Of a DNA stretch of 39,281 nt, positions 7,990-38,286 are shown one piece after another. Origin of the DNA: a bacterium (GTDB lineage: Bacteria; Calescibacteriota; Calescibacteriia; Calescibacteriales; Calescibacteriaceae); NCBI GenBank assembly GCA_030550715.1, contig JAUQOU010000017.1, positions 1 to 39,281 of the forward strand, read 5' to 3'. The stretch's first letter is position 1; each line of letters opens with the position of its first letter. Below the pieces are notes generated by a model. That model ran no database searches. It was not told where the DNA came from and saw nothing but the letters and a program-made list of their open reading frames with translations. Position numbers and translations under genes: made by a program.

Positions 7990-9978
7990 TTATCTTTCAG
8001 ATAGCCATTTTCTTATGAGGTTTATGACTAAATCTTTATTTGTTCTTATGACATCTTTTGCGATTTCAACAGCTCTTTCAATTTCTTCTTCTGGTATAGC
8101 CGGTGGTGGAGCAACTTCTATTTCAGGTATCTGAATAAGAGGTGGAGGAGTTATCTCTATTTTTGGAAGCTCTACCTCCTCTTTTGGCGGAGGCGGAGGT
8201 GGTGGGGGTGGAGCTACTTCCTCTGGCGGGGGGGCTATTTCTTCAACTATAACCTCTTCTGGTGGTGGAGGCGGAGGAGCTACTTCTTCTCTCCGGGGCG
8301 GAGGCGGAGGTGGTGGAGGTGGGGCTACTTCCTCTGGTGGCGGTGGTGGGGGTGGAGTTATTACTATCTGCGGTACAGGCGGAGGGACTACTTCAACAAA
8401 TGCAGGCGGAGGAACGACCTCCTCAACCTTTACTTCCGGTGGGGTGATTGCTACTTCTGGTGGGGGCGGGGGTGGCTGAACCTCAACAATAACGGGGACT
8501 TCAACTTTCTCCGCAGGAGCTTTCTCAAACTTCGGAATTACAACCTCTACCTCCTGCGGTAATCTCCTCTCAAAAAGTTTTTTGAATATCAGATAGAGTG
8601 AGATGAAAAATCCTATTGCCGCTATCGCAATCCATTTGTACATGCTTGCCCTCTCCTTAGATACCTCTGAAAGCTGCAGCATAGCCAATCTTTCCGCATA
8701 TCTTAAAGAACCTTCAAACGGTACCGAAACAACAGATATCTGGTCCCCCCTTGCTTGCACTATTCCTACTGCTGACTCTACAAAACTTCTTATCTTTTCA
8801 AGCTCATCGTCTGGAAGCGGAATAAATCTTATGAATGGTTTTCCATCTCTCCACTCAACTTCATACTGCCCATCTACCATCACTGCTACAGAAATTCTTT
8901 TCAGATCTCCTACCTCTTCTTCAACATGTTCAACTATCTTTGATATTTCATAATTTCTTATCCTTTCGTTTCTTTCGTATTCAGATTTTCCGGGAAGTGG
9001 TTCAATTCCAATTTCTGGTGGGACGTTCTGCCTTGTTCCGGGGGGACCAACCGGAACCGCTCCGACTCCCTTAAATCTTTCTTCTATGGTCTGTTCGCTT
9101 CTTACTGCGGTTTCGGCTGGGTCATACCTTTCAGATACTCTTTTTACTTTTGTGAAATCAAGGTCAGCATCAACCTTTACTGCTACTTTTCCAGCTCCTA
9201 CGCTTTTTTCAAGTAGTTCGGTGAGTTTATCCTCTAAATTTCTTTCAAACTGCCTTTCAAGTTCAAGTTGTCCCTGAGTTGCTTCAACTGCTGTCAATCC
9301 CTCATCTTCTTTCTTCGGGTTCAGCATTCTACCTCTCTGATCAACAACGGTTACATTTTCTGGTTTCAGACCTTCAACTGCGAACGATACAAGGTGAATT
9401 ATTCCTTTTACTGATGCGGGGGAAATTGAGCATCCGGGTGTTAGCCACAGCATAACAGATGCGGTGGGTTCTTTTTGTTCTTCTGTGAAAAGTTTCTTTT
9501 CTGGAATTACTATATGCACTCTCGCATTTTCAACACAGTTTATTTTCATTATTGTTCTTTCAAGTTCATTTTGAATTGCTCTCTGATAATTTACTCTTTG
9601 CATAAACTCAGTGAGCCCAAACTTTGGTTTCTCAAATATTTCAAGTCCTGCTCTTTCCTGTGGAAGACCTTTGGTCGCTAATGTGTTTCTTATATCTGGA
9701 ACAAGCTCTTTGGGGACAAAAATTGTATCTGCTGTGTCTGAAAGTTTGTAAGGTATTTTCATTCTTTCAAGTTCATCTATTATTCTTGATACGTCTTGAG
9801 ATTTAAGGTCTGTATAAAGGACATCCCATTTTATTTCCTGTTTTTTTGAAGCTGTCATCTGATAAATGAAAATTCCTATTCCGCTTATGAGGAATATTGC
9901 TGCTATTCCAATGAGGACCGGCAGAGGGATTCTTCTTATTGATTCTCCTATCTGTCTTAAAATGTCTTGTGCTCTCAT
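7990..9978 (-). CDS. fliF: Flagellar MS-ring protein FliF with polyproline C-terminal extension
   Basis: FliF forms the inner-membrane MS ring on which the flagellar rotor and export gate assemble. The 662-residue product has the N-terminal helix (VLIGIAAIFLISGIGIFIY), the YscJ/FliF periplasmic domain (QRVNYQRAIQNELERTI, VHIVIPEKKLF) and a second transmembrane helix (WIAIAAIGFFISLYLIF) near residues 450-470. A roughly 150-residue segment of Pro runs (up to nine in a row) alternating with Glu/Val blocks occupies about residues 471-626. The last about 35 residues (RAVEIAKDVIRTNKDLVINLIRKWL) match the conserved FliG-binding tail. FliF is usually about 530-570 residues, so the proline spacer is the extra part. 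It is the last gene of rpsT-flgC-hypothetical-fliE-fliF, 18 bases after fliE. Confidence 0.95.
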   Translation of the reverse strand: MRAQDILRQIGESIRRIPLPVLIGIAAIFLISGIGIFIYQMTASKKQEIKWDVLYTDLKSQDVSRIIDELERMKIPYKLSDTADTIFVPKELVPDIRNTLATKGLPQERAGLEIFEKPKFGLTEFMQRVNYQRAIQNELERTIMKINCVENARVHIVIPEKKLFTEEQKEPTASVMLWLTPGCSISPASVKGIIHLVSFAVEGLKPENVTVVDQRGRMLNPKKEDEGLTAVEATQGQLELERQFERNLEDKLTELLEKSVGAGKVAVKVDADLDFTKVKRVSERYDPAETAVRSEQTIEERFKGVGAVPVGPPGTRQNVPPEIGIEPLPGKSEYERNERIRNYEISKIVEHVEEEVGDLKRISVAVMVDGQYEVEWRDGKPFIRFIPLPDDELEKIRSFVESAVGIVQARGDQISVVSVPFEGSLRYAERLAMLQLSEVSKERASMYKWIAIAAIGFFISLYLIFKKLFERRLPQEVEVVIPKFEKAPAEKVEVPVIVEVQPPPPPPEVAITPPEVKVEEVVPPPAFVEVVPPPVPQIVITPPPPPPPEEVAPPPPPPPPPRREEVAPPPPPPEEVIVEEIAPPPEEVAPPPPPPPPPKEEVELPKIEITPPPLIQIPEIEVAPPPAIPEEEIERAVEIAKDVIRTNKDLVINLIRKWLSER

Positions 9979-9996: not shown

Positions 9997-10338
9997 TTAA
10001 AATTGCATTCGCATTATGTTCTCAAAAGCTTGGATTGCTCTGTTTCTTATTTCTAAAAAAAGCTGAAAAAGCGTATCTGCTTTTTCTCTCGCTATCATAA
10101 CATCGTGTATGTCTTCGGTTTTTCCGAGAATCATTTTCACTGACTTTTCTTTTGCTTCGTTTTCCGCTTTTCTGACTGTTTCAAAAGCTGATTTTAGAGA
10201 TGAAAGGAACCCATCTTCTTTTTCATCGCCTTGTTTTATTTCTTCTTGAGGTTTTACGCTTTTTATTATTCTTTCAAACTCGCTGTTGAAAATCTTTTCT
10301 GTTATGTGAGGGTCTATGTTATTTATATCTATCTTCAT
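9997..10338 (-). CDS. fliE: Flagellar hook-basal body protein FliE
   Basis: FliE links the MS ring to the proximal rod. The 113-residue protein has the usual length and the diagnostic C-terminal pattern: DIHDVMIAREKADTLFQLFL, then EIRNRAIQAFENIMRMQ. The first third is variable and charged, as is normal for the family. It lies directly upstream of fliF in transcription order, the standard fliE-fliF arrangement. It follows a small unknown gene rather than flgC directly. Confidence 0.92.
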   Translation of the reverse strand: MKIDINNIDPHITEKIFNSEFERIIKSVKPQEEIKQGDEKEDGFLSSLKSAFETVRKAENEAKEKSVKMILGKTEDIHDVMIAREKADTLFQLFLEIRNRAIQAFENIMRMQF

Positions 10339-10365: not shown

Positions 10366-10626
10366 TTACTCGTTCTCTTCATTTTCCAAAATGATATTGC
10401 TTCTCAAAGATAAACCGTTTATGAACTGCATTATATCTTCTGTTATCACTTTTTCTTTTTCTCCTGTTTTTTGAGCTGATTTTTCTTTTCTTTCACTTTT
10501 GGTTAATTTCTCTATCTCTTTTTGAAGTTCAACAGAGAAGTTGTTTTCTTCGGAAGGGACACTCTGTATTTTCTGCGAGACAGAGCTTAAAATCTCTTTT
10601 ACCGCATCTATTTTCTTTGTCTCCAT
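10366..10626 (-). CDS. Small hypothetical protein inside the flagellar operon
   Basis: I do not recognise this 86-residue, highly charged protein. It has predicted helix (KKIDAVKEILSSVSQKIQSV; ELQKEIEKLTKSERKEK), no Cys and no membrane segment. It sits between flgC (30 bases) and fliE (27 bases) on the same strand, so it is almost certainly co-transcribed with rod genes. flgC and fliE are normally adjacent. A lineage-specific flagellar accessory or chaperone is possible, but nothing in the sequence proves it. Confidence 0.6.
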   Translation of the reverse strand: METKKIDAVKEILSSVSQKIQSVPSEENNFSVELQKEIEKLTKSERKEKSAQKTGEKEKVITEDIMQFINGLSLRSNIILENEENE

Positions 10627-10655: not shown

Positions 10656-11189
10656 TTATGTTCTTTGTCCTATTGTCAGGGCGGTATTTGCTATCTCTTT
10701 TGTCGCATTAACCACTGCAACATTTGCTTCAAAAGCTCTTTGAGCTGATATAAGATTCACCATCTCCTCTATTGGATTTATGTTCGGATATGCAACATAA
10801 CCGTTTTCGTCAGCATCGGGGTGATATGGTTCATATTTCAAAACCGGCGGTCTTGGGTCTTCAACTATTCCCTCAACCTCAACCTCCGACAGCACTGAAT
10901 CCACTGGTATTTTGGTTTCGGAAATCTTCTCTGCAATCCTTTCCCTTATGAAATCCGGAAGATACGAAAGATGAAATACAAGAGGTCTGAGATATATATT
11001 TTTTTCGGTCCAAAATTTTTCATCTACGGGTTTTGCCTTGAATATTACTTCTTTTCTCATGTAGGGACCTCCCTCAGGTGTTCTCGTTGTGTGTATATTG
11101 GCAAGGTTTGATGCGATAGTGTTCAATCTTATTCTTTCCGCTCGCAGTGCTGATGAAGATATTCTCAAAGCTGAAAGCCAAGCCCTCAT
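10656..11189 (-). CDS. flgC: Flagellar proximal rod protein FlgC
   Basis: FlgC is a proximal rod subunit exported through the flagellar type III gate. The N-terminal SALRISSSALRAERIRLNTI and ASNLANIHTTRTPEGGPYMR match the rod/hook N-domain (the SGL...NANTT-type motif). The C-terminal half has HPDADENGYVAYPNINPIEE and MVNLISAQRAFEANVAVVNA, both diagnostic of FlgC. At 177 residues it is longer than the common 135-150. The extra sequence is a middle segment (FHLSYLPDFIRERIAEKISE) with no obvious counterpart. flgB, the usual upstream neighbour, is absent. The next gene upstream is rpsT. Confidence 0.93.
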   Translation of the reverse strand: MRAWLSALRISSSALRAERIRLNTIASNLANIHTTRTPEGGPYMRKEVIFKAKPVDEKFWTEKNIYLRPLVFHLSYLPDFIRERIAEKISETKIPVDSVLSEVEVEGIVEDPRPPVLKYEPYHPDADENGYVAYPNINPIEEMVNLISAQRAFEANVAVVNATKEIANTALTIGQRT

Positions 11190-20463: not shown

Positions 20464-23400
20464 ATGGATATAGGGAAAGTAAGAGAGAGAGGTAAGGAGA
20501 CAGGGAAAGTTATTTTTGCGCTTTTGCTTTTCGTTTTGGTAAGTTGCTTTGCCTTTATTTTTTCTTTTTCATCAGCATTTGCTCTGGGAATTCATAGTTT
20601 TGCCGAGTTCAGAAAAATTTATGGGAAAGATTGGCTATCTTTGTGGGAAACACAGAAAAATCCAAAACTTATATTCGGAGGGAAGTTCTTCTCTCAGAAT
20701 GCAATCCCTCTCCAACCCCCGAAAAATTACAAGACCGCAAACTTAAAATCTTCATATAAATTCTCTCCCTTTTCTATCACCGCTGAAAATGATAAACTCA
20801 TAATCACAGAAATTCCTTCTGAAATTATGTTCTCACCAAACGGTGATGGTTTTTTGGACTATGCTGTATTTTCCTTTCAGGTGAGAGTATCTCATACAGA
20901 TTCATGTGGGAGTCAAGGGAATACCCCATCGTATTGCTACATATCTTGGTCTCTTGAAATAAAAAAATGTGGGAGAGATAAAGGAGTGGAGGACAGAAAG
21001 GCGGAAGATGAAATAAGGAACAGTGAAACAGATGAGTGCAGTAAGGTAAGGGAGTTTGAGAGTGAATATAAAATACCTGAATTTCTGCCGGGTGAAATTA
21101 CAAAATCAATACCCATAAAAGTTGTTTGGGATGGGAAAGACGATGAAGGTCAATTGTCAGGTGAAGGGGTGTATAAATGGGATTTTTCGGTGGAGTATAA
21201 GAGAAGAAGTGAGTTATGTTATGGGGCGTGCAAGAGCGTATGTGAGGAGAATGAAAGGATATGTGGTTGCTATGAGAGATGCGATCCGGAATGCACGAAT
21301 AAGGAAAAGAAATTAGGAGCAGCATCAGTGAAATGGGAGCTTATACTTGACCTAACACCTCCAGAGATGGTTTTTTTGGGTCCCGAACCATTTTCAGATG
21401 ATAGAAGCAAGGTTGTTATAGCATATTCAGATGAGTTTGCGGGAGTGATAACAGAGAGTTTGAGTGTTTTTATGAATGGCAGGGATATAACGGAGGAATT
21501 CCAGAAAGGTGAGACACTCGCGATTTTTGAGCCATCAGAACCACTGCCTGAGGGAGAAATATCTTTGAGATTTTCTGTTTTTGATAGGGCGGGAAACTTT
21601 ACGGTTGGTGAAGGTAGATTTAAGGTTTTTTCATCGGATACGCTGAGGAAGTTTGGAGTTGCAAGAGATTTCCTAATTTCCCTGAAAGATGTTTATGGTT
21701 TCAGAGAGGATTTGGGAGACCTTTCATTTGATTGGTGGGGGTCAAAGCACCAAGTTCTGAGTTTTTCTGAGGGGGAAACAAGTATAACACTTGACATAAC
21801 ATTTGCGAAGTTTTTGCAGAGTTATGAGGGGATACCAGTTGCTGGAGCGAACCTATCTGTGATAGTAGATAGATATGGAGACGCGAGGGGGATATATGGA
21901 AGATATTTTCCTGATATATCAGCACCACGGGAACCGGTGATAAGTCCTGAGGAAGTAACAGAAATTGCACTCAGAGAATATATGAAAGGAAGAAGAGGGA
22001 AGGGACCATGTCCGACATGTGATATTGCGCCACTTCCACCCGGCATTGTTTTATTTCACCTTATGCTCTATTCTTCTGGAAACCCGCAGATTTTGGGAAA
22101 ACCGACTTTATGGATTTATCCTGTAATGAAGGGAGATGAATGGGAATATCATTTATGCTGGTTTGTAAGGGTTGGATACATTGGGTATTTTATAGACGCA
22201 GTAGATGGTAGTGTTGTGAAGAAAGTTAGATTTATCGCAAATTTTGGTGAACAGATAATTTACGCTTCTTCCGCAACAGGATATGTTTATGAAGATGACT
22301 GGTTCAGTGATAGTAAAGAAACATCAATTGTGGGACTTCCGAGGTTAATAGCAGGTATAGGAGGGAAGTATACATGTGGATGCGGGAGGACTCTTGACCT
22401 TTCTTGCTGTGCCTTTCTATTCCCTCTGTGCCCACTTTGCTGGAAAAGGGCTTGTTCAACATGCACATATTTTATTCCTTTGAATTTGGAGAGGTCTCTT
22501 TTGGGAGATATGGGTGGGAATCAAACACTTGAAGTTCTTACGTATCTTGGGTCTGCGACACATGTAGCAAAAGGAAATATTAACTGGTTTTACAGTTATC
22601 AGGGGACATCCTCTGATGAGACATTTTTTATTTCAGGTTTGGATAGTGATTTGGAGAGGGAAGAAGCGGGATTTCGTGAGGTGAATGCATACTACCATGT
22701 AATGAGAGCGAGAGATAGATTATCTCTTTTTGGAGTAAGTCTGACCGCCCCACTTACTGTTTATGCTACTTATTATCCTTATGACATTACCACATGCAAT
22801 GGATTTTCTACACACGGGGATAATAAATATGATATAGGATTATTGAATGGAGGGGAGATGGTAGTAGAATTCCTTTTACCTTTTACTATTCCTTGTATTC
22901 CCGCTTCATGGTCGGATGATGTAATATACCATGAATTCGGCCATGTTGTGCTATTTAACTACAAGATATTTGGTTCTGATACAGGTAGAGAACCTGTAGA
23001 TGGTTTTCATGAGGGTGTAGCAGATTATATATCTTCACTTGTTGATAGTCCCTTTTCCCCAGCAGATGGGCTTGACTCCATAATAGCCGAAGGATTCTAC
23101 TGCAACAATACAACTTGTGAAACGCCAAATTATATAAGAAATCTTGAAGAAAATATGAAGCAGGTCGGGCATTTTGTAAGAGTGGAATGCACCCCCGGAA
23201 AATATTATGTATGCTATATTAGAGAAATTTCGGAGGGAGTTCAGATAAACCCACACCGATACGGATTAGCGATAGGGAATGCGCTTTTCAGGTCAATAAA
23301 TCATTTTATGAGGAAGGGGGAAGCGATGGGAGTTGGGAGATTTTGGTCATACTCCCTTTTCAATTCGGTTTTGTTTTCTGCCCTGTATAACATGGTAGGT

Positions 23401-24234
23401 CAAAATGGAACATTTGAGCTTATGAATTATGGAGAATTTATTGCAAATATGATAGCGGTAATGTTTTCGCAGGACTGGGGTGGTTTTGAGGAACTCAAAG
23501 TGATATTCCATGACGTTTTGGCGACTATATCAGCAAGCAATTTTATAGCAGTTGATATTGATTCGCTCTCGGAAGGTGTAATATCAACGATAATTGTGGG
23601 AAAGCCGTATGTTACTGTGGGGAGGTGGCTATCAAGAGGGCAACTACCTTTGCTGGAAGCAGATGATGGTATTGTTTTCAGTTCGCCACTGACGTTGGTG
23701 GGATTTTTAGGAGGTTTGACGGATGGAGATATAATGTGGCGAGTTCGTCTTGCGACATCTCCTGATTTATTCTCAACCCCATCGGGTCGGACCAGCACAA
23801 ATTACTATGAGACAGATTGGACTACACCAACGTTCAGGAGTGAGGTAAGATTTTTCTATGGTTCATCACCCGAGGTAGTAACCTATTACTTTTTTGAATA
23901 TGAGATTCCCCGAGAGGTTTTTGATAATTTGAGGTCTGGGACACCCCGAAACCAGAACGCAAAAATATACGTTTTGATAGAGGTATCAAATGGTGGGCAA
24001 GTGAAGAACTCCACACTGAGGTTGGGTGGTAGAGAGATAAATTACTACTTTTATGCTCCGGGAACTGCAGAAGTAGGAGGAGGTGGTGGGGGTAGAGGAG
24101 GATGTTCATCTTTTTTGGCAATTTCAGAAATCCTGATGGTTCTGTTATTGGTTTGTTTCTACCGATGTATGAGAAGATTATCCCATGTTCTGGAAAAATT
24201 ATTACATTATAAGATGAGAAAGAAGCTGACATGA
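20464..24234 (+). CDS. Large secreted zinc metallopeptidase with FTP/PepSY propeptide and C-terminal sorting-like tail
   Basis: The 1256-residue product has an N-terminal signal/anchor (IFALLLFVLVSCFAFIFSF). At about residues 122-245 lies an Ig-like domain with FSPNGDGFLDYAVFSF and WDGKDDEGQLSGEGVYKWDF (FlgD-Ig/gliding-type). A second Ig-like domain follows LDLTPPEMVFLGPEP. From about 400 an FTP-like propeptide contains FLQSYEGIPVAGANLSVIVD and leads into a PepSY-like segment (PEEVTEIALREYM; FIDAVDGSVVKKV). The catalytic domain has HEFGH at 823-827 and FHEGVADY with Glu850, giving a gluzincin HExxH...E site as in M4/M36 peptidases. The C-terminus is Gly-rich, then GCSS, a hydrophobic stretch and RCMRR, resembling Cys-containing C-terminal sorting signals. 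Cys-rich loops suggest disulfides or metal binding. GGGAGAAGG precedes the ATG. Exact peptidase family is uncertain. Confidence 0.82.
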   Translation: MDIGKVRERGKETGKVIFALLLFVLVSCFAFIFSFSSAFALGIHSFAEFRKIYGKDWLSLWETQKNPKLIFGGKFFSQNAIPLQPPKNYKTANLKSSYKFSPFSITAENDKLIITEIPSEIMFSPNGDGFLDYAVFSFQVRVSHTDSCGSQGNTPSYCYISWSLEIKKCGRDKGVEDRKAEDEIRNSETDECSKVREFESEYKIPEFLPGEITKSIPIKVVWDGKDDEGQLSGEGVYKWDFSVEYKRRSELCYGACKSVCEENERICGCYERCDPECTNKEKKLGAASVKWELILDLTPPEMVFLGPEPFSDDRSKVVIAYSDEFAGVITESLSVFMNGRDITEEFQKGETLAIFEPSEPLPEGEISLRFSVFDRAGNFTVGEGRFKVFSSDTLRKFGVARDFLISLKDVYGFREDLGDLSFDWWGSKHQVLSFSEGETSITLDITFAKFLQSYEGIPVAGANLSVIVDRYGDARGIYGRYFPDISAPREPVISPEEVTEIALREYMKGRRGKGPCPTCDIAPLPPGIVLFHLMLYSSGNPQILGKPTLWIYPVMKGDEWEYHLCWFVRVGYIGYFIDAVDGSVVKKVRFIANFGEQIIYASSATGYVYEDDWFSDSKETSIVGLPRLIAGIGGKYTCGCGRTLDLSCCAFLFPLCPLCWKRACSTCTYFIPLNLERSLLGDMGGNQTLEVLTYLGSATHVAKGNINWFYSYQGTSSDETFFISGLDSDLEREEAGFREVNAYYHVMRARDRLSLFGVSLTAPLTVYATYYPYDITTCNGFSTHGDNKYDIGLLNGGEMVVEFLLPFTIPCIPASWSDDVIYHEFGHVVLFNYKIFGSDTGREPVDGFHEGVADYISSLVDSPFSPADGLDSIIAEGFYCNNTTCETPNYIRNLEENMKQVGHFVRVECTPGKYYVCYIREISEGVQINPHRYGLAIGNALFRSINHFMRKGEAMGVGRFWSYSLFNSVLFSALYNMVGQNGTFELMNYGEFIANMIAVMFSQDWGGFEELKVIFHDVLATISASNFIAVDIDSLSEGVISTIIVGKPYVTVGRWLSRGQLPLLEADDGIVFSSPLTLVGFLGGLTDGDIMWRVRLATSPDLFSTPSGRTSTNYYETDWTTPTFRSEVRFFYGSSPEVVTYYFFEYEIPREVFDNLRSGTPRNQNAKIYVLIEVSNGGQVKNSTLRLGGREINYYFYAPGTAEVGGGGGGRGGCSSFLAISEILMVLLLVCFYRCMRRLSHVLEKLLHYKMRKKLT

Positions 24235-30584: not shown

Positions 30585-32249
30585 ATGCTTTGCAGAGCAA
30601 AATTTCTCATCACATTTTTATTTTTGATTTTTGTTTCTTTTTCTTGTGGAAGAGCATGGAAGGGGCTTTTCTTCCCGGAAGAAGGTGGAGTTGTTATTCC
30701 AAAAGAATCTGAAATTGTCTCAATCCCAGCTTCGCAAGGCGCAAGTATTCCAGAGGGTATACAGTGGGATTTTACCCTTGATAAAAACGACCTACCACAT
30801 ATCGCAATTTTTGATTTCTATCAGGGAGCTTTGTATTACTTTTCTCTTGATTTTCAAGGAAAATGGGTACCTGAAAAAGTTGATCCACCAGAAGAAGAAA
30901 GAAGCTTCCTTGTTTCAAGTTATGTAGCTGGAAAGAGCCCTCGGATATTCCTCGTAGATGGCATACCACACATCGTATATCTTTCCTCATCTTACAAAGA
31001 TAAGATACCGAGAACCTACCTGATAAAGGAGGCGTTCAAAGATAAATTTGGTATATGGAGATGTAGAACTATAAAACGCTGGACTACCGATATAGATTTC
31101 ATAGATGCCAGATATTCTCCGTCTCTTAAAAAAGTGATTTTAGTTCTGCTTGATAAAAGTGAGCCAGCTCTTTTCATAGGTAAATTTTCTCCGGGAAACG
31201 AAAATAACACGAAGGTTTGCAACTTCCCTGAACTTGAAGAAAGAGAGAAGGAAAATTCAGATATCTCTCTTGCTCCCATTTATTTCTTTGCCTCAGGAAT
31301 TCTGAGAATAAAATACAAGTTAGACAGCCGTTGCAATAATATAAGCAATGTCTCTCCGGGCTTTTCTCTTCAACTTGTAAACTTCAAAAGAAATCTTGTT
31401 GATATGACCGGCTTTGTATTCTATGAGTATGTTTTAAACCAAGCTTACTGGATTGAATTCAGACAAGACCAATTTCAGTTCTCCGATGAACTATCATCAC
31501 AGATTATAAATAATCCGTCTTTGAGCTATATTGAGTATTTGAGGGTGAACGAATCGGGAACCCAGTGTCTTCCTAATTCTTCTCCGGCATACCTTATAAA
31601 TCTCACTCATCCTGCGGCAGATATAGATTCAATTTCCATCCTTACCCAAAATGGTGAGATAAAATTAGATAAAGGAAATTACATTGTAGATTCCCCCCAG
31701 AGGATATTTCTGAACCTTTCGGGCATATATCCCGGGAAAATAAATTCTCCTGATGCAGTGAGTTCTGTTGTTGTGAGGTTTAAACCGATGATGGATTTTC
31801 GTATGGTTTCTCTTGGCGGTTTTCGTAAGCTTATTTCTGCTGCTTCTGATGAGAAAGGAGAAATTCATTTTTCAAATTTCAACAGTACTCCTCCGCTTTT
31901 TGCGGTTGAGTATGGCTTTTTACCATCGCCAGATAGTCCTCCTTCTATATTAGTTGTAGACGGAGGCGGTGGGGGAATATATACGGTAGGAACAGGTGGA
32001 ACATCTATATCGGTCACTCCCGAAGGATACCCTGTTATAGCTTATTTTTATCCATTCACATCAGACCTCAAAGTTGCTGTGAAGTTTTCAAATACATGGT
32101 ATGTTGTCTCTAAAAAAATGAAAGATGTTTCTGGCTTTGCTCCTAAATCCATTATGTTAAGTAATGAATCATCTGTTGCTATACTTGTTCCCACAAGGTC
32201 TGCTGATTCCTTCAAAATTTCCCTTATCTATGTTCCCATCGCTCCCTGA
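30585..32249 (+). CDS. Putative propeller-like lipoprotein A
   Basis: The 554-residue product has a lipoprotein signal (LITFLFLIFVSFSCGR) whose Cys would be lipidated. After a short linker it carries repeats of the form D-x-x-x-x-PHI-x-hydrophobic (LDKNDLPHIAIFDFYQGALY; VDGIPHIVYLSSS) typical of beta-propeller blades in surface proteins. The middle part (about 240-430) is beta-rich and the end returns to blade-like patterns (ITPEGYPVIAYFYP-type). AAGGA lies about 10 bases before the ATG. It is the first of three same-strand lipoproteins with short gaps. The ligand is unknown. Confidence 0.65.
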   Translation: MLCRAKFLITFLFLIFVSFSCGRAWKGLFFPEEGGVVIPKESEIVSIPASQGASIPEGIQWDFTLDKNDLPHIAIFDFYQGALYYFSLDFQGKWVPEKVDPPEEERSFLVSSYVAGKSPRIFLVDGIPHIVYLSSSYKDKIPRTYLIKEAFKDKFGIWRCRTIKRWTTDIDFIDARYSPSLKKVILVLLDKSEPALFIGKFSPGNENNTKVCNFPELEEREKENSDISLAPIYFFASGILRIKYKLDSRCNNISNVSPGFSLQLVNFKRNLVDMTGFVFYEYVLNQAYWIEFRQDQFQFSDELSSQIINNPSLSYIEYLRVNESGTQCLPNSSPAYLINLTHPAADIDSISILTQNGEIKLDKGNYIVDSPQRIFLNLSGIYPGKINSPDAVSSVVVRFKPMMDFRMVSLGGFRKLISAASDEKGEIHFSNFNSTPPLFAVEYGFLPSPDSPPSILVVDGGGGGIYTVGTGGTSISVTPEGYPVIAYFYPFTSDLKVAVKFSNTWYVVSKKMKDVSGFAPKSIMLSNESSVAILVPTRSADSFKISLIYVPIAP

Positions 32250-33864: not shown

Positions 33865-36534
33865 ATGTTATTATTAAAGAATAAAATGACCTCTACAAGT
33901 AAAGAGGGAGAAAAAAATCCCCAATTTAGCAGATTTATAAATACCTTTCCTCACCGAATTTCTCTTACCTTTTTTATTTTTCTCTTTTTTTTGTTTTCCA
34001 GCATTTTATCATCGTGTTCAAAGAAAAAAGAGGGAAACGAACCGCCACCATCGTCTAACAATTCTAACAATAAGGAGTGTAAAAGCAGAATTGATTTCTT
34101 CCCGCAAACCGTTTCAGGAGAATCTCCTCTTGTTGTCTCATTCTATGCTTCTTTCTATCCAGAATCAAGTACTGGGCTGACCGCTGTTGCCATAGATTTC
34201 GGTGCTGATGGCTTTGTAGACCTTGTGACATATCAGGGACCAACATCTTTCTACTTCGTATCAACTTACTCATCTTTGGGAAGTTTTTCAGATAAGTTCA
34301 TTTTCTGGTGGAATGAAGATGGTAAGATCTGCGAGAGATCATTTTCTGCAAGCATAACAGTTTCAGGATTCTGTCCAAGACCATCTTATCAAATTGAGTC
34401 GTTTGGTTCAGTTGGGAACAGTGCCGTTGCTGTTATCAGAGTAATTAACCTCCCTCTTGAACAGGTTGAGTTTTATGCCGGATATGAGAAGTTAGAAAAA
34501 GTTCAATGTTATCCAGATAATCTCCTTCAAGGTAGATGTACTATTACTTCCCCTGCTCCATCTTGGGGCGACTGGTTGTTCTGCCTTTATGGTAAATCTT
34601 ACTGCGGAAATCAAGGAGAAACAATCTGCTCCCCAATAGTTATAAACTATCCGCAAACTCTTGCGGTCTCATACGGTATAGGAGGAGTAAGACGAGCCTT
34701 TTCAAACGGAATCTCTTTGTTTGCTGAAACACCTCCCTTTGTGACTCTCTTTGCAAGTGATGGCTCAATAATAAAGAGAATAAACTTGCCGGGGGGAGAT
34801 ATAAGATACTCAGATTTATCTTCTGATGGTTTTTTCACTTTCAATATTGTTGGAAGTGATTCTGTGCTTTACTTTGTCTCTTTTTCATCCGGAAAAATTA
34901 AAGAGGTTATAAAAGACCCAAATTTATATGGTGCAGTTGCTTTTGATGTTTTTGAAAGGTCTGGAAAAAGATATGCCGCTTTTCTGAGAAGTTTTTCTGG
35001 CGGAGCTCCGGGAGACATACTCGTCTATGATATAACAGGACTTCAAGCTTCTACTCCTATATGTCAGAAAAATTTAGATTCAGGCGGGAGAGAGATAAGA
35101 TTTGAAAAAGATAATCTCTTTGTGATTTACTCAAATAAGATTTTGGTTTTTCCTCTGAGTTTTTCTGGCGAAGTATGCAGTATATCAGACCCTTTTGAGT
35201 ATAATAATTTCTCTGCTTTCAACGATATTACAGACCTCCAGGCTTTCGGCTCAGAAGTCACTATTGTATGGACATCTTTCGAACAACCTATGAGGGGTAA
35301 TGTTGAAATTTTGTCATTTGATACTTTAGGTAGGGTTTTCAGACAGATTGGAATTTTTGATGTTTTTCCCGGCAAAGACAAAGATGTTTTTTCTCTTAAA
35401 GTTTCACCTTTCAACCTATCTGATGTAGCGGTGGGATACCTTCTGAAAGATTCAGGGAAGTATAAAGTGAAGCTTTATAACTGGGTCAGAGGGGAGAGCA
35501 GATGTGGAGTTGAGGGATTGGAAGTTCCATCAAGACCAATCTCTGCTTTATTTTTGAGTGAGGTGACGGTTGCAGTTTTTGATTTATCTAATAATTTGAC
35601 GATACTCAACTTTTCAGCTTGTGAGACAAAAAAAACAAAAGCTATCTCAGGAGCCGTAAATGGAGCGAATGTGCTTTCAGATATAGATTGTTCCAAATCA
35701 AAAGCAAAAGTTTATTTCCCCGATGGCAGTGCTCTTGCAGAACTTGACATTCTTCCTATATTCCTTTCTCCTTCTTCCTCACCTTCTTTATCAAAGGTCT
35801 ACCCCTTTGAAACTCTGAAACTATCATTTGATTTTTATAAGAATTTATACGGTGTGTTTAAAGAAGAGAGCGTTTTTGTTGCAGATATTACAGGTTATTT
35901 TTCTCCCATAAGCTTTTTCGGTTCAGATGTAAAATCGTTTTCAGCTGGAAAAGATGTTATATTGATAGGAAGTTCAAACGCTGTTTTTTACTCAAAAAAA
36001 GGAATTCCGAATTTTTATATCCTCAAAAACAAACAGGCGAAAAAAATAAAGTACATTAACGGATTATTTTTTATATTCTCCGGAAACGATATAGATGTTC
36101 TTGAAGAAAATTCTTTGAGTTTTGTTCTTGAAGGTTTTCCTGTTGACCCTCTCAGGTTTCAAGATGTTTCTTTTTCTCCCGATATGAAGATATACCTTCT
36201 TGGCTCAACTCAGGTTGTTGAATATACATATCAAGATAACAGTTTTTACAAAAACAGGGAAAGAACTTTTTATCTTCCAGCGGGAAGGATTATTGATTCT
36301 GAATTCAGCTCTGGACACATATTTTTCATCTCCGACCTCTCTATTGCTAACTTTCTTGGCATCATAAATACTGAAAATCTCAAAATTACCTTGCTTGCGA
36401 ACTTGGGAGAGGGAAGCAGAGCCATGAGCATCTGGGCTGAACCCTCTTGCTTACCGAATACTATTTTTGCATCAGTATATGGTGTTTTCGGAACTGATAT
36501 TTTCAGGGGATTTTCCATAATTATTCCAAAGTGA
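33865..36534 (+). CDS. Large putative lipoprotein with PKD-like and propeller-like regions
   Basis: The 889-residue product has a long charged N-region, hydrophobic FFIFLFFLFSSILSSC with lipobox LSSC, then a Lys/Pro/Ser/Asn-rich linker. At about residues 75-170 a PKD-like domain shows SGESPLVVSFYASFYPESSS-type residues and an AIDFGADGFVD core. From about 270 to the end, repeated short beta blades (VTLFASDGSIIKRINLPGGD; NLFVIYSNKILVFPLSFSG) suggest one or two propellers. No active-site signature is visible. ATG 33886 is an alternative start. It ends with TGA, and the same frame stays open beyond into a decayed coding segment. Confidence 0.65.
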   Translation: MLLLKNKMTSTSKEGEKNPQFSRFINTFPHRISLTFFIFLFFLFSSILSSCSKKKEGNEPPPSSNNSNNKECKSRIDFFPQTVSGESPLVVSFYASFYPESSTGLTAVAIDFGADGFVDLVTYQGPTSFYFVSTYSSLGSFSDKFIFWWNEDGKICERSFSASITVSGFCPRPSYQIESFGSVGNSAVAVIRVINLPLEQVEFYAGYEKLEKVQCYPDNLLQGRCTITSPAPSWGDWLFCLYGKSYCGNQGETICSPIVINYPQTLAVSYGIGGVRRAFSNGISLFAETPPFVTLFASDGSIIKRINLPGGDIRYSDLSSDGFFTFNIVGSDSVLYFVSFSSGKIKEVIKDPNLYGAVAFDVFERSGKRYAAFLRSFSGGAPGDILVYDITGLQASTPICQKNLDSGGREIRFEKDNLFVIYSNKILVFPLSFSGEVCSISDPFEYNNFSAFNDITDLQAFGSEVTIVWTSFEQPMRGNVEILSFDTLGRVFRQIGIFDVFPGKDKDVFSLKVSPFNLSDVAVGYLLKDSGKYKVKLYNWVRGESRCGVEGLEVPSRPISALFLSEVTVAVFDLSNNLTILNFSACETKKTKAISGAVNGANVLSDIDCSKSKAKVYFPDGSALAELDILPIFLSPSSSPSLSKVYPFETLKLSFDFYKNLYGVFKEESVFVADITGYFSPISFFGSDVKSFSAGKDVILIGSSNAVFYSKKGIPNFYILKNKQAKKIKYINGLFFIFSGNDIDVLEENSLSFVLEGFPVDPLRFQDVSFSPDMKIYLLGSTQVVEYTYQDNSFYKNRERTFYLPAGRIIDSEFSSGHIFFISDLSIANFLGIINTENLKITLLANLGEGSRAMSIWAEPSCLPNTIFASVYGVFGTDIFRGFSIIIPK

Positions 36535-36540
36535 GTTAAA

Positions 36541-36869
36541 TGCAGTTCCATTTCTCTTTTTGTCCCAACTCTTACTCAAAGCGAGCTTGAAGCTATAAAA
36601 AAGTATGAACAAGAGGGAAAAAAATTCGTCGGGAAGGAGTATCCGGCAAAATACGGACTTCTTTTTTTCTTCAATATAATTTTGGGAATAGATATTCCGA
36701 GTTATTATATAACTCGTGTTGTCACAGTTGAAGAAGGAAAAGCTAAGGAGATAGTTTCTTCTTCACAGGAGCTTGAAAAAAGATAGCAGAGCTTGAAAAG
36801 AAACTTGCTGAGCTTGAAAGTGAGAGAGCAAAACTTCTCATTCCCAGAAATTTCACAGTTCAACTTTAA
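36541..36869 (+). pseudogene. Start-less, frameshifted coding remnant
   Basis: After the TGA of the preceding gene the same frame continues without a start codon. It encodes CSSISLFVPTLTQSELEAIK, then KKYEQEGKKFVGKEYPAKYG and LLFFFNIILGIDIPSYYITR, ending at TAG 36784. Shifting by one base within GAAAAAAG continues a coiled coil (KIAELEKKLAELESERAKLL) to TAA at 36867-36869. Coding character is clear but no ATG, GTG or TTG is available, and the ORF track missed it. It looks like a truncated membrane-associated coiled-coil gene. Its end overlaps the convergent gene 36853-38202 by 17 bases. Confidence 0.6.
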
Positions 36870-38202
36870 AGAATGTCCCTATTCTTATCCTTGACCACGA
36901 GAAATATTTATTATCTGATTCATTTCCTTCAAAAATAAATCTTATTATGTGCCACTCAATAAGGTCTTGATTGATATATATAGATGATGATGCTAAAAAT
37001 ATCAGGTTTCTACTTCTGCCTTCAAAACTTTCAGGAAAGTTCATGAAATCAAAAATTGAGTATATGTTCAAGCCAATTTTTTCTATTGGTTCGAAGAATA
37101 TATCAAGATTTGGTGTGATGAAAGTTTCTGCAAACCTCTTATCTTGTGCAAATCTCTTACCAACTCCGATCTTTCCCATGACGAAAAATCTCATGTTCCC
37201 TTCTTTTTTATGGAAGAAGCTTCCAAGCTGAAAAAAAGTTAGAGGTCCTTTTCTGCCTTCTATTTCGTTTTTTGTCTCAATTCCTCCGCCAAGAGATGAG
37301 AAGATGAACTTTGTGGGAAAAGAATAAAGCGATATCAGGTGTGATAGAGAGAAAATTCCATTTTCAAAAGTAGAGAAATTCAGAGAATACTTTGAGCCGA
37401 GAACTATTTTTTCATTTGCCTCCGCTCCGACCGATATGGTATGAGAAGATATATTCGGAACATCTGTGTAAAATTCTCCTCCACCGTTATACTCTAAAAA
37501 TGGAGAAATAATCTTTCCATCCATAAAATCAGCTCTTGCATACCACGATATTTCATTTACTATATCCCATCTTTTCTGGACCTCCTGATCTTCAAATAGG
37601 ACAGGAAAGGATTTAGTTGAGAAAGAAGGAGAGATGAAGAATTTCCCGTTGAAATCAAATACTGACGATATATCTTTTATTTCTTTTTTCAGTTTTTTAA
37701 TTTTCACTTTATCCAGCATTTCGTTTTCTTCTGCTTTTTCGGCGTATGATTCTGCTTTTTTCCCGTTGCCCTTGAGAAGTTCTATGTTTGATAGAATGAA
37801 GCTATCTGCAGGACTTAAATTACTTTCTCCTTCAACAATAAGAACTTTTTCTGCTTTTTCAATTTCTCCCTTTTGCAAAAGAATCTTTGCCTTTTCAAAT
37901 TTTATTCTCTCCTTGAACCTTTCTTCTAAATCCTTTATTATTTCAAATTCTCTTTCAAGTTTGTTCTCGTCTTTTTCTTTTTGAGATATTATTATGTTCG
38001 CTATTAAACTATCTGTTATTTCACTTTCGTAGCTTTTTATTATTTGAAATGCTCTATCTTTTTCTCCATTTTCAAAGTAAAGAAGTGATTTTGTAAATGA
38101 GTTCAGCTTATCGCCTTCGGCTTCGTTGGGAGTGAGAGATAATTTGAATAAAAATATTATCAGGAGTATAGAGATTTGAGAAAAATTTATTTTCTTATTC
38201 AT
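36853..38202 (-). CDS. TPR-like periplasmic region fused to a predicted outer-membrane beta-barrel
   Basis: The track start is at 38250, but ATG 38202 (MNKKINFSQISILLIIFLFK) places a normal signal peptide at the N-terminus, so I prefer it. Residues about 25-180 (counted from that start) are helical with TPR/Sel1-like repeats (LLYFENGEKDRAFQIIKSYE; ILLQKGEIEKAEKVLIVEGE). The remaining about 250 residues are alternating strands (ISWYARADFMDGKIISPFLE; HTISVGAEANEKIVLGSKYS) as in an outer-membrane barrel such as the surface-lipoprotein-assembly-type TPR porins. The end (GTFFKVEL) is not the usual terminal Phe. It is divergent from an M23 peptidase gene. Role unknown; assembly or export of surface proteins is a guess from architecture. 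Confidence 0.62.
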   Translation of the reverse strand: MNKKINFSQISILLIIFLFKLSLTPNEAEGDKLNSFTKSLLYFENGEKDRAFQIIKSYESEITDSLIANIIISQKEKDENKLEREFEIIKDLEERFKERIKFEKAKILLQKGEIEKAEKVLIVEGESNLSPADSFILSNIELLKGNGKKAESYAEKAEENEMLDKVKIKKLKKEIKDISSVFDFNGKFFISPSFSTKSFPVLFEDQEVQKRWDIVNEISWYARADFMDGKIISPFLEYNGGGEFYTDVPNISSHTISVGAEANEKIVLGSKYSLNFSTFENGIFSLSHLISLYSFPTKFIFSSLGGGIETKNEIEGRKGPLTFFQLGSFFHKKEGNMRFFVMGKIGVGKRFAQDKRFAETFITPNLDIFFEPIEKIGLNIYSIFDFMNFPESFEGRSRNLIFLASSSIYINQDLIEWHIIRFIFEGNESDNKYFSWSRIRIGTFFKVEL

Positions 38203-38286
38203 TTTTTTTGTGTGCTCTTGTGCTTTCTCAACTTTTCTTTTACATTGCATTATTGATAAATTTTATGACAATTCTTAAAATATTTT

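Follow-up and report, generated by a model that had tools for sequence, protein, structure and literature searches.

How the MS-ring is joined to the C-ring of the flagellar motor is the question raised by a FliF protein in which a long proline-rich, acidic tract separates the last membrane helix from the FliG-binding tail. Its gene lies on a stretch of 39,281 nucleotides (contig JAUQOU010000017.1, referred to as the window) from a relative of Candidatus Calescibacterium in the candidate phylum Calescibacteriota, uncultured thermal-spring bacteria for which flagellar genes have already been reported (PMC4791363). The gene (7990..9978, minus strand) opens with ATG and encodes an MS-ring protein of 662 aa that matches TIGR00206 with 351.4 bits (cut-off 129.75) and both the YscJ_FliF (PF01514, 214.7 bits) and the FliF C-terminal (PF08345, 146.9 bits) periplasmic domains. 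The SctJ model gives 64 bits, below its cut-off of 162. Profile matches identify fliE immediately upstream (9997..10338, minus strand) and flgC beyond it (10656..11189, minus strand). Among public sequences, the nearest are a contig of Bacterium HR19, at 96% identity, and two further MAG-derived contigs, one of them from Candidatus Calescibacterium sp. SKYB43. Between flgC and fliE there is an 86-aa open reading frame without a Pfam match (10366-10626, minus strand). Four large open reading frames elsewhere in the window also lack a Pfam match at 0.001: 20464-24234 (1256 aa), 33865-36534 (889 aa), 30585-32249 (554 aa), and 36853-38250 (465 aa).

Hydropathy places the second transmembrane helix (TM2) at residues 446-465 (8584..8643, minus strand), within a helix that spans residues 422-472 in a low-confidence structural model. 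It is followed by a juxtamembrane segment, KKLFERRLPQEVEVVIPKFEK (residues 466-486; 8521..8583, minus strand), in which 19 of 21 positions are invariant across four lineages. The proline/acidic tract itself covers residues 487-631 (8086..8520, minus strand) and holds 60 Pro, 26 acidic, and 6 basic residues, for a net charge of -20; Pro makes up 41% of its residues (60/145) as compared to 5.6% of residues 1-486. Five Pro runs of at least six residues occur (lengths 6, 7, 9, 6, and 9); shuffling the tract 20,000 times never gave as many, and shuffling the full-length protein 5,000 times never gave a run of nine. The two runs of nine fall at residues 553-561 (8296..8322, minus strand) and 590-598 (8185..8211, minus strand). 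EEV blocks and repeated PPP-E-E-V motifs are distributed within the tract, along with many PPP stall motifs. The distal part (residues 603-631; 8086..8172, minus strand) is nearly gap-free in alignments and recognisable across genera (P-x-I-E-I-A-P-P..I-E-I-A-x-P-P). A preliminary description of the locus had reported a spacer of about 150 residues before the FliG-binding tail, with EEV blocks and Pro runs of up to nine between TM2 and that tail, and both statements hold.

The tail (residues 632-662; 7993..8085, minus strand) comprises 31 residues with two predicted helices, and matches the profile of FliF tails from other families above all 2,000 shuffles. The same is true of the tails of all five Calescibacteriota genomes that we examined, so that by its profile the FliG-binding tail is intact and canonical. 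A search with the tail alone returned no significant PDB match. An AlphaFold model of the window protein, built from four sequences only and of low confidence (mean pLDDT 51), has no secondary structure between the long helix that includes TM2 and residue 629 (473-629, pLDDT 26-43), followed by helices at 630-646 and 648-661. The two modelled tail helices agree with the hinge described for the FliF tail of T. maritima (PMC6079021). Given the low confidence of the model, we infer disorder of the tract mainly from its composition.

To place the tract in context, we turned to FliF across bacteria, which was detected in 162 of the 386 sampled genomes; the sequences of 85 FliFs from other families were read for comparison. 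Their connectors between TM2 and the tail have a median length of 41 residues (range 21-141) and a median Pro content of 7%, with a maximum of 21% in a connector of 24 residues, and Pro runs above two were not seen in any of them. By the same measure, Calescibacteriota connectors have 155-182 residues and 31-38% Pro, and helix-forming residues account for 34-38% of them vs. a median of 57% in the other 85. The window protein shares with FliF of Salmonella and other bacteria (TIGR00206) the fliE-fliF gene order, the periplasmic ring-building domains, TM2, and the FliG-binding tail. It differs in the connector, which is short and predicted or modelled as helical in those proteins but about 3.5 times longer and 41% Pro here. 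The short helix-rich connector, a typical but not defining feature of FliF, is absent in Calescibacteriota. Length alone is not unique: in one other phylum the region after TM2 spans 172-205 aa, contrary to the earlier statement that no FliF is known with a spacer this long. That region is equal in length but Pro-poor (2-4%) and rich in helix formers, and represents an independent and different elongation. Judged from these sequences, it is composition and not length that sets the Calescibacteriota connector apart, and nothing else in the survey matches it in this respect. The literature searched contained no previous account of a FliF connector rich in Pro, and one may exist elsewhere. In the other phylum, the long region includes a conserved block, NNFFPEITD...EMTPEEQYL..EAF, that looks folded and may be an insertion separating TM2 from the FliG-binding tail.

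The explanation that we favour, and regard as probable though well short of certain, is that Calescibacteriota have replaced the short helix-rich connector of FliF with a disordered, acidic, partly polyproline-II (PPII) tether that forms a compliant joint between MS-ring and C-ring. A tether of about 135-160 residues would take the place of the connector between TM2 and the FliG-binding tail, anchored at the MS-ring by the conserved juxtamembrane segment and at its other end by the conventional tail, which would co-fold with FliG_N. Selection on the middle of the tract would act on its content of P, E, V, I, and K and not on its sequence. About 34 parallel, negatively charged tethers, a ring copy number that we infer, would lengthen the joint and raise its compliance; instead of stiff helices, they would provide a spring or brush that is both entropic and electrostatic. 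For other bacteria, the stretch from TM2 to the tail has been predicted to be helical and proposed to provide helical fasteners that minimise compliance (PMC6079021). In the Salmonella motor structure, FliF residues 429-514 were filled in as AlphaFold helices, and the authors remark that a flexible link between the rings may be of importance (PMC11087270). With Pro at about every second to third position, the Calescibacteriota tract cannot form a connector helix.

The tract is present in all five Calescibacteriota genomes, which represent three genera, and in three public contigs, some of which derive from the same MAGs. Across the five genomes it is 134-161 residues long, with 34-43% Pro and a net charge of -16 to -22, and P, E, V, I, and K together make up 80-91% of it. 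Separate genomes and public contigs thus agree, which rules out an assembly artefact or collapsed repeat, one of the grounds on which the preliminary description would have been set aside. The other was that the tract might be common in FliF of the phylum together with a normal C-ring position; the first half of this applies, since alignment with the related genomes shows the tract to be common (5/5). A polyproline habit of the whole proteome was also rejected, since 12 of the 21 matches to a six-proline pattern in the genome fall in fliF; the few other sites are secreted or lipoprotein-like linkers and out-of-frame matches. Found across the phylum and conserved there, the connector is an uncommon version of an established motor component.

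Comparison of the window species with its HRbin19-like relative gives a dN/dS of 0.072 for the tract and 0.024 for the FliF body, values from which we conclude that the tract is under purifying selection. Between genera, the middle aligns only with gaps, in contrast to the juxtamembrane segment and the distal 29 residues, where gaps are almost absent; in the sequences compared, the middle keeps its composition but not its sequence. This pattern could also arise if the connector tolerates changes in length and a low-complexity insert rich in Pro and Glu expanded in the phylum's ancestor while serving no mechanical purpose, with the excess looped out next to a C-ring in its normal place. Such neutral expansion is the best surviving alternative, although we consider it unlikely. 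It is consistent with the wide variation in connector length and sequence among bacteria, with the poor alignment of the tract middle, and with Pro runs that differ between close relatives (at most 7 residues in the HRbin19-like relative, 9 in the window species). Moreover, two copies of a 47-nt block, 91% identical to each other (8186-8232 and 8297-8343), overlap the two runs of nine, which therefore partly reflect recent duplication; repeat growth contributes to the exact lengths of the Pro runs. On the other hand, a search of the tract with TRF found no tandem repeats, only irregular direct repeats spaced 27-168 nt apart are present, and all four Pro codons are in use (CCA 25, CCT 14, CCG 13, CCC 7). 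Together with a dN/dS of 0.07, this leaves DNA repeat expansion alone unsupported as the main cause, despite the one recent duplication. Low dN/dS with mixed codons, the retention of length and composition across three genera, the conservation of both ends, and the translational cost of a long Pro-rich tract all argue against neutrality.

Genes for the C-ring proteins FliG, FliM, and FliN occur in all five genomes, and loss of FliG or of the C-ring was rejected on this basis as the reason for the tract. FliG of every genome carries a Lys/Glu-rich extension of 45-58 residues ahead of FliG_N, as compared to mostly 7-18 residues in 30 other FliGs, only two of which exceed 30 (counted from the leftmost Met). 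Disordered sequence at the FliF-FliG junction is therefore longer on both partners. In FliM, about 40 charged residues precede the CheY-binding-type LTQDEVDALL motif that usually lies at the very N-terminus (L175:3859-5007). These extensions bear on the suggestion that the tract binds another protein, which is possible. As a full explanation, a docking platform, with PPII segments and acidic blocks as ligands for an export, chemotaxis, or placement protein or for the basic-rich FliG extension, seems distinctly unlikely. The repeated PPP-E-E-V motifs, the conserved distal block, and the Lys-rich N-terminal extensions on FliG and FliM of the same genomes point in its direction, and titin PEVK combines the roles of spring and scaffold (PMC3859903). 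Yet the motifs in the middle shift between genera, no partner with a PPII-binding domain was identified, and the mixed charge of the FliG and FliM extensions makes electrostatic pairing speculative. The fliG gene stands alone between iron-sulfur respiratory genes, apart from fliF (L117:4326-5474). A second, weak FliG_C match was found in four of the five genomes, in a protein of about 240 aa; one of these proteins (L031:1477-2196) resembles a fusion of a cyclic-nucleotide-binding domain with a helical domain of the FliG_C/MgtE_N-like type.

Proline-rich chains that span a gap are known from other systems. The periplasmic spacer of TonB, in which Pro and charged residues bridge a membrane anchor and a docking domain, resembles the tract in this respect and differs in protein, compartment, and task. 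Closer in composition is titin PEVK, a disordered entropic spring with short PPII stretches and a persistence length of about 1 nm (PMC12295887, PMC3859903). Pro, Glu, Val, and Lys dominate both, with Ile added in the tract, but in the tract Lys is scarce, Pro runs are longer, and the charge is strongly negative; the 28-residue modular repeat of PEVK was not found by TRF or by the direct-repeat search, and no homology is claimed. By analogy, the tract would have PEVK-like entropic elasticity and PPII content. We estimate a contour length of 45-60 nm and a relaxed reach of about 10-11 nm at a persistence length of 1 nm, or about 14-15 nm at 2 nm.

Stators sit in the membrane, and FliG_C receives torque near it. 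A worm-like-chain estimate that takes a radius of 12 nm, 34 copies, and 2000 pN nm from other motors indicates that, under a load of about 5 pN per chain, unrestrained tethers would extend by about 20-37 nm. That is enough to wind one ring far around relative to the other, which makes a joint that bears load through flexible chains alone awkward in mechanical terms; direct ring contacts, packing of the chains, or a looped-out tract that bears no load are real possibilities. The stronger version of our favoured explanation, in which about 34 disordered, PEVK-like springs join the rings of the Calescibacteriota motor, couple torque compliantly, and possibly set the C-ring apart from the MS-ring, is one that we put forward tentatively and with more doubt than belief. 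If true, rings joined by springs would contradict the view of the FliF-FliG joint as built to minimise compliance. The torque path from C-ring to MS-ring is still partly modelled, via AlphaFold helices (PMC11087270), and a phylum with a non-helical connector is a natural experiment on the assumption of stiff helices: if a flexible tether works when put in place of the connector of another motor, a stiff joint is unnecessary, and if it does not, some other contact must compensate for it in the phylum.

Because of the awkward winding of free chains, we give low weight to the idea, also from the preliminary description, of a C-ring displaced from the membrane; displacement is possible but not implied by the sequence of the tract. 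A stiff, extended spacer holding the C-ring well away from the membrane is very improbable. Up to nine consecutive prolines and the long contour length would suit it, and like-charged chains, about 2.2 nm apart if the radius is taken as 12 nm, would force one another into extension. However, blocks of V, I, and E interrupt the Pro runs every few residues, the low-confidence model lacks secondary structure at residues 473-629, and a PEVK-type persistence length near 1 nm would bring the relaxed reach down to about 10-15 nm, which together make stiffness doubtful. Furthermore, FliG_C must remain near the membrane-embedded stators to receive torque.

Translation of so many PPP motifs plausibly requires EF-P, as had been proposed. 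EF-P is encoded once in each of the five genomes and scores above the curated EF-P cut-off, which fits such a need, but its tip loop is non-canonical. The canonical loop is KPGKGxAF, in which Lys34 is normally the modified residue. All five Calescibacteriota proteins have K(I/V)AQRQPH instead (L174:4576-5130 in the window genome), with Gln at the usual Lys34 position, whereas 27 of 30 other EF-Ps have KPGKG, a set of best-scoring matches that leans toward canonical loops. A published survey of 1,166 EF-Ps recorded Gln at this position in 0.6% of them (PMC6544042), which makes it a rare class, here in an organism with extreme polyproline. That the tract exists for translational pausing, with polyproline stalls after TM2 has left the ribosome slowing synthesis and aiding membrane insertion or co-assembly, is hardly credible: the first Pro run begins at residue 502, 37 residues past the end of TM2, B. 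subtilis fliF is among the genes with pauses alleviated by EF-P (PMC6613710), and the EF-P loop of the phylum is unusual, but a single PPP is enough for a pause, and ten runs plus acidic blocks exceed that need. In the genome of the window, fliN and efp are divergent and 82 bp apart (L174:4081-5130); the two genes are also close in one other Calescibacteriota genome (G002) but not in the rest.
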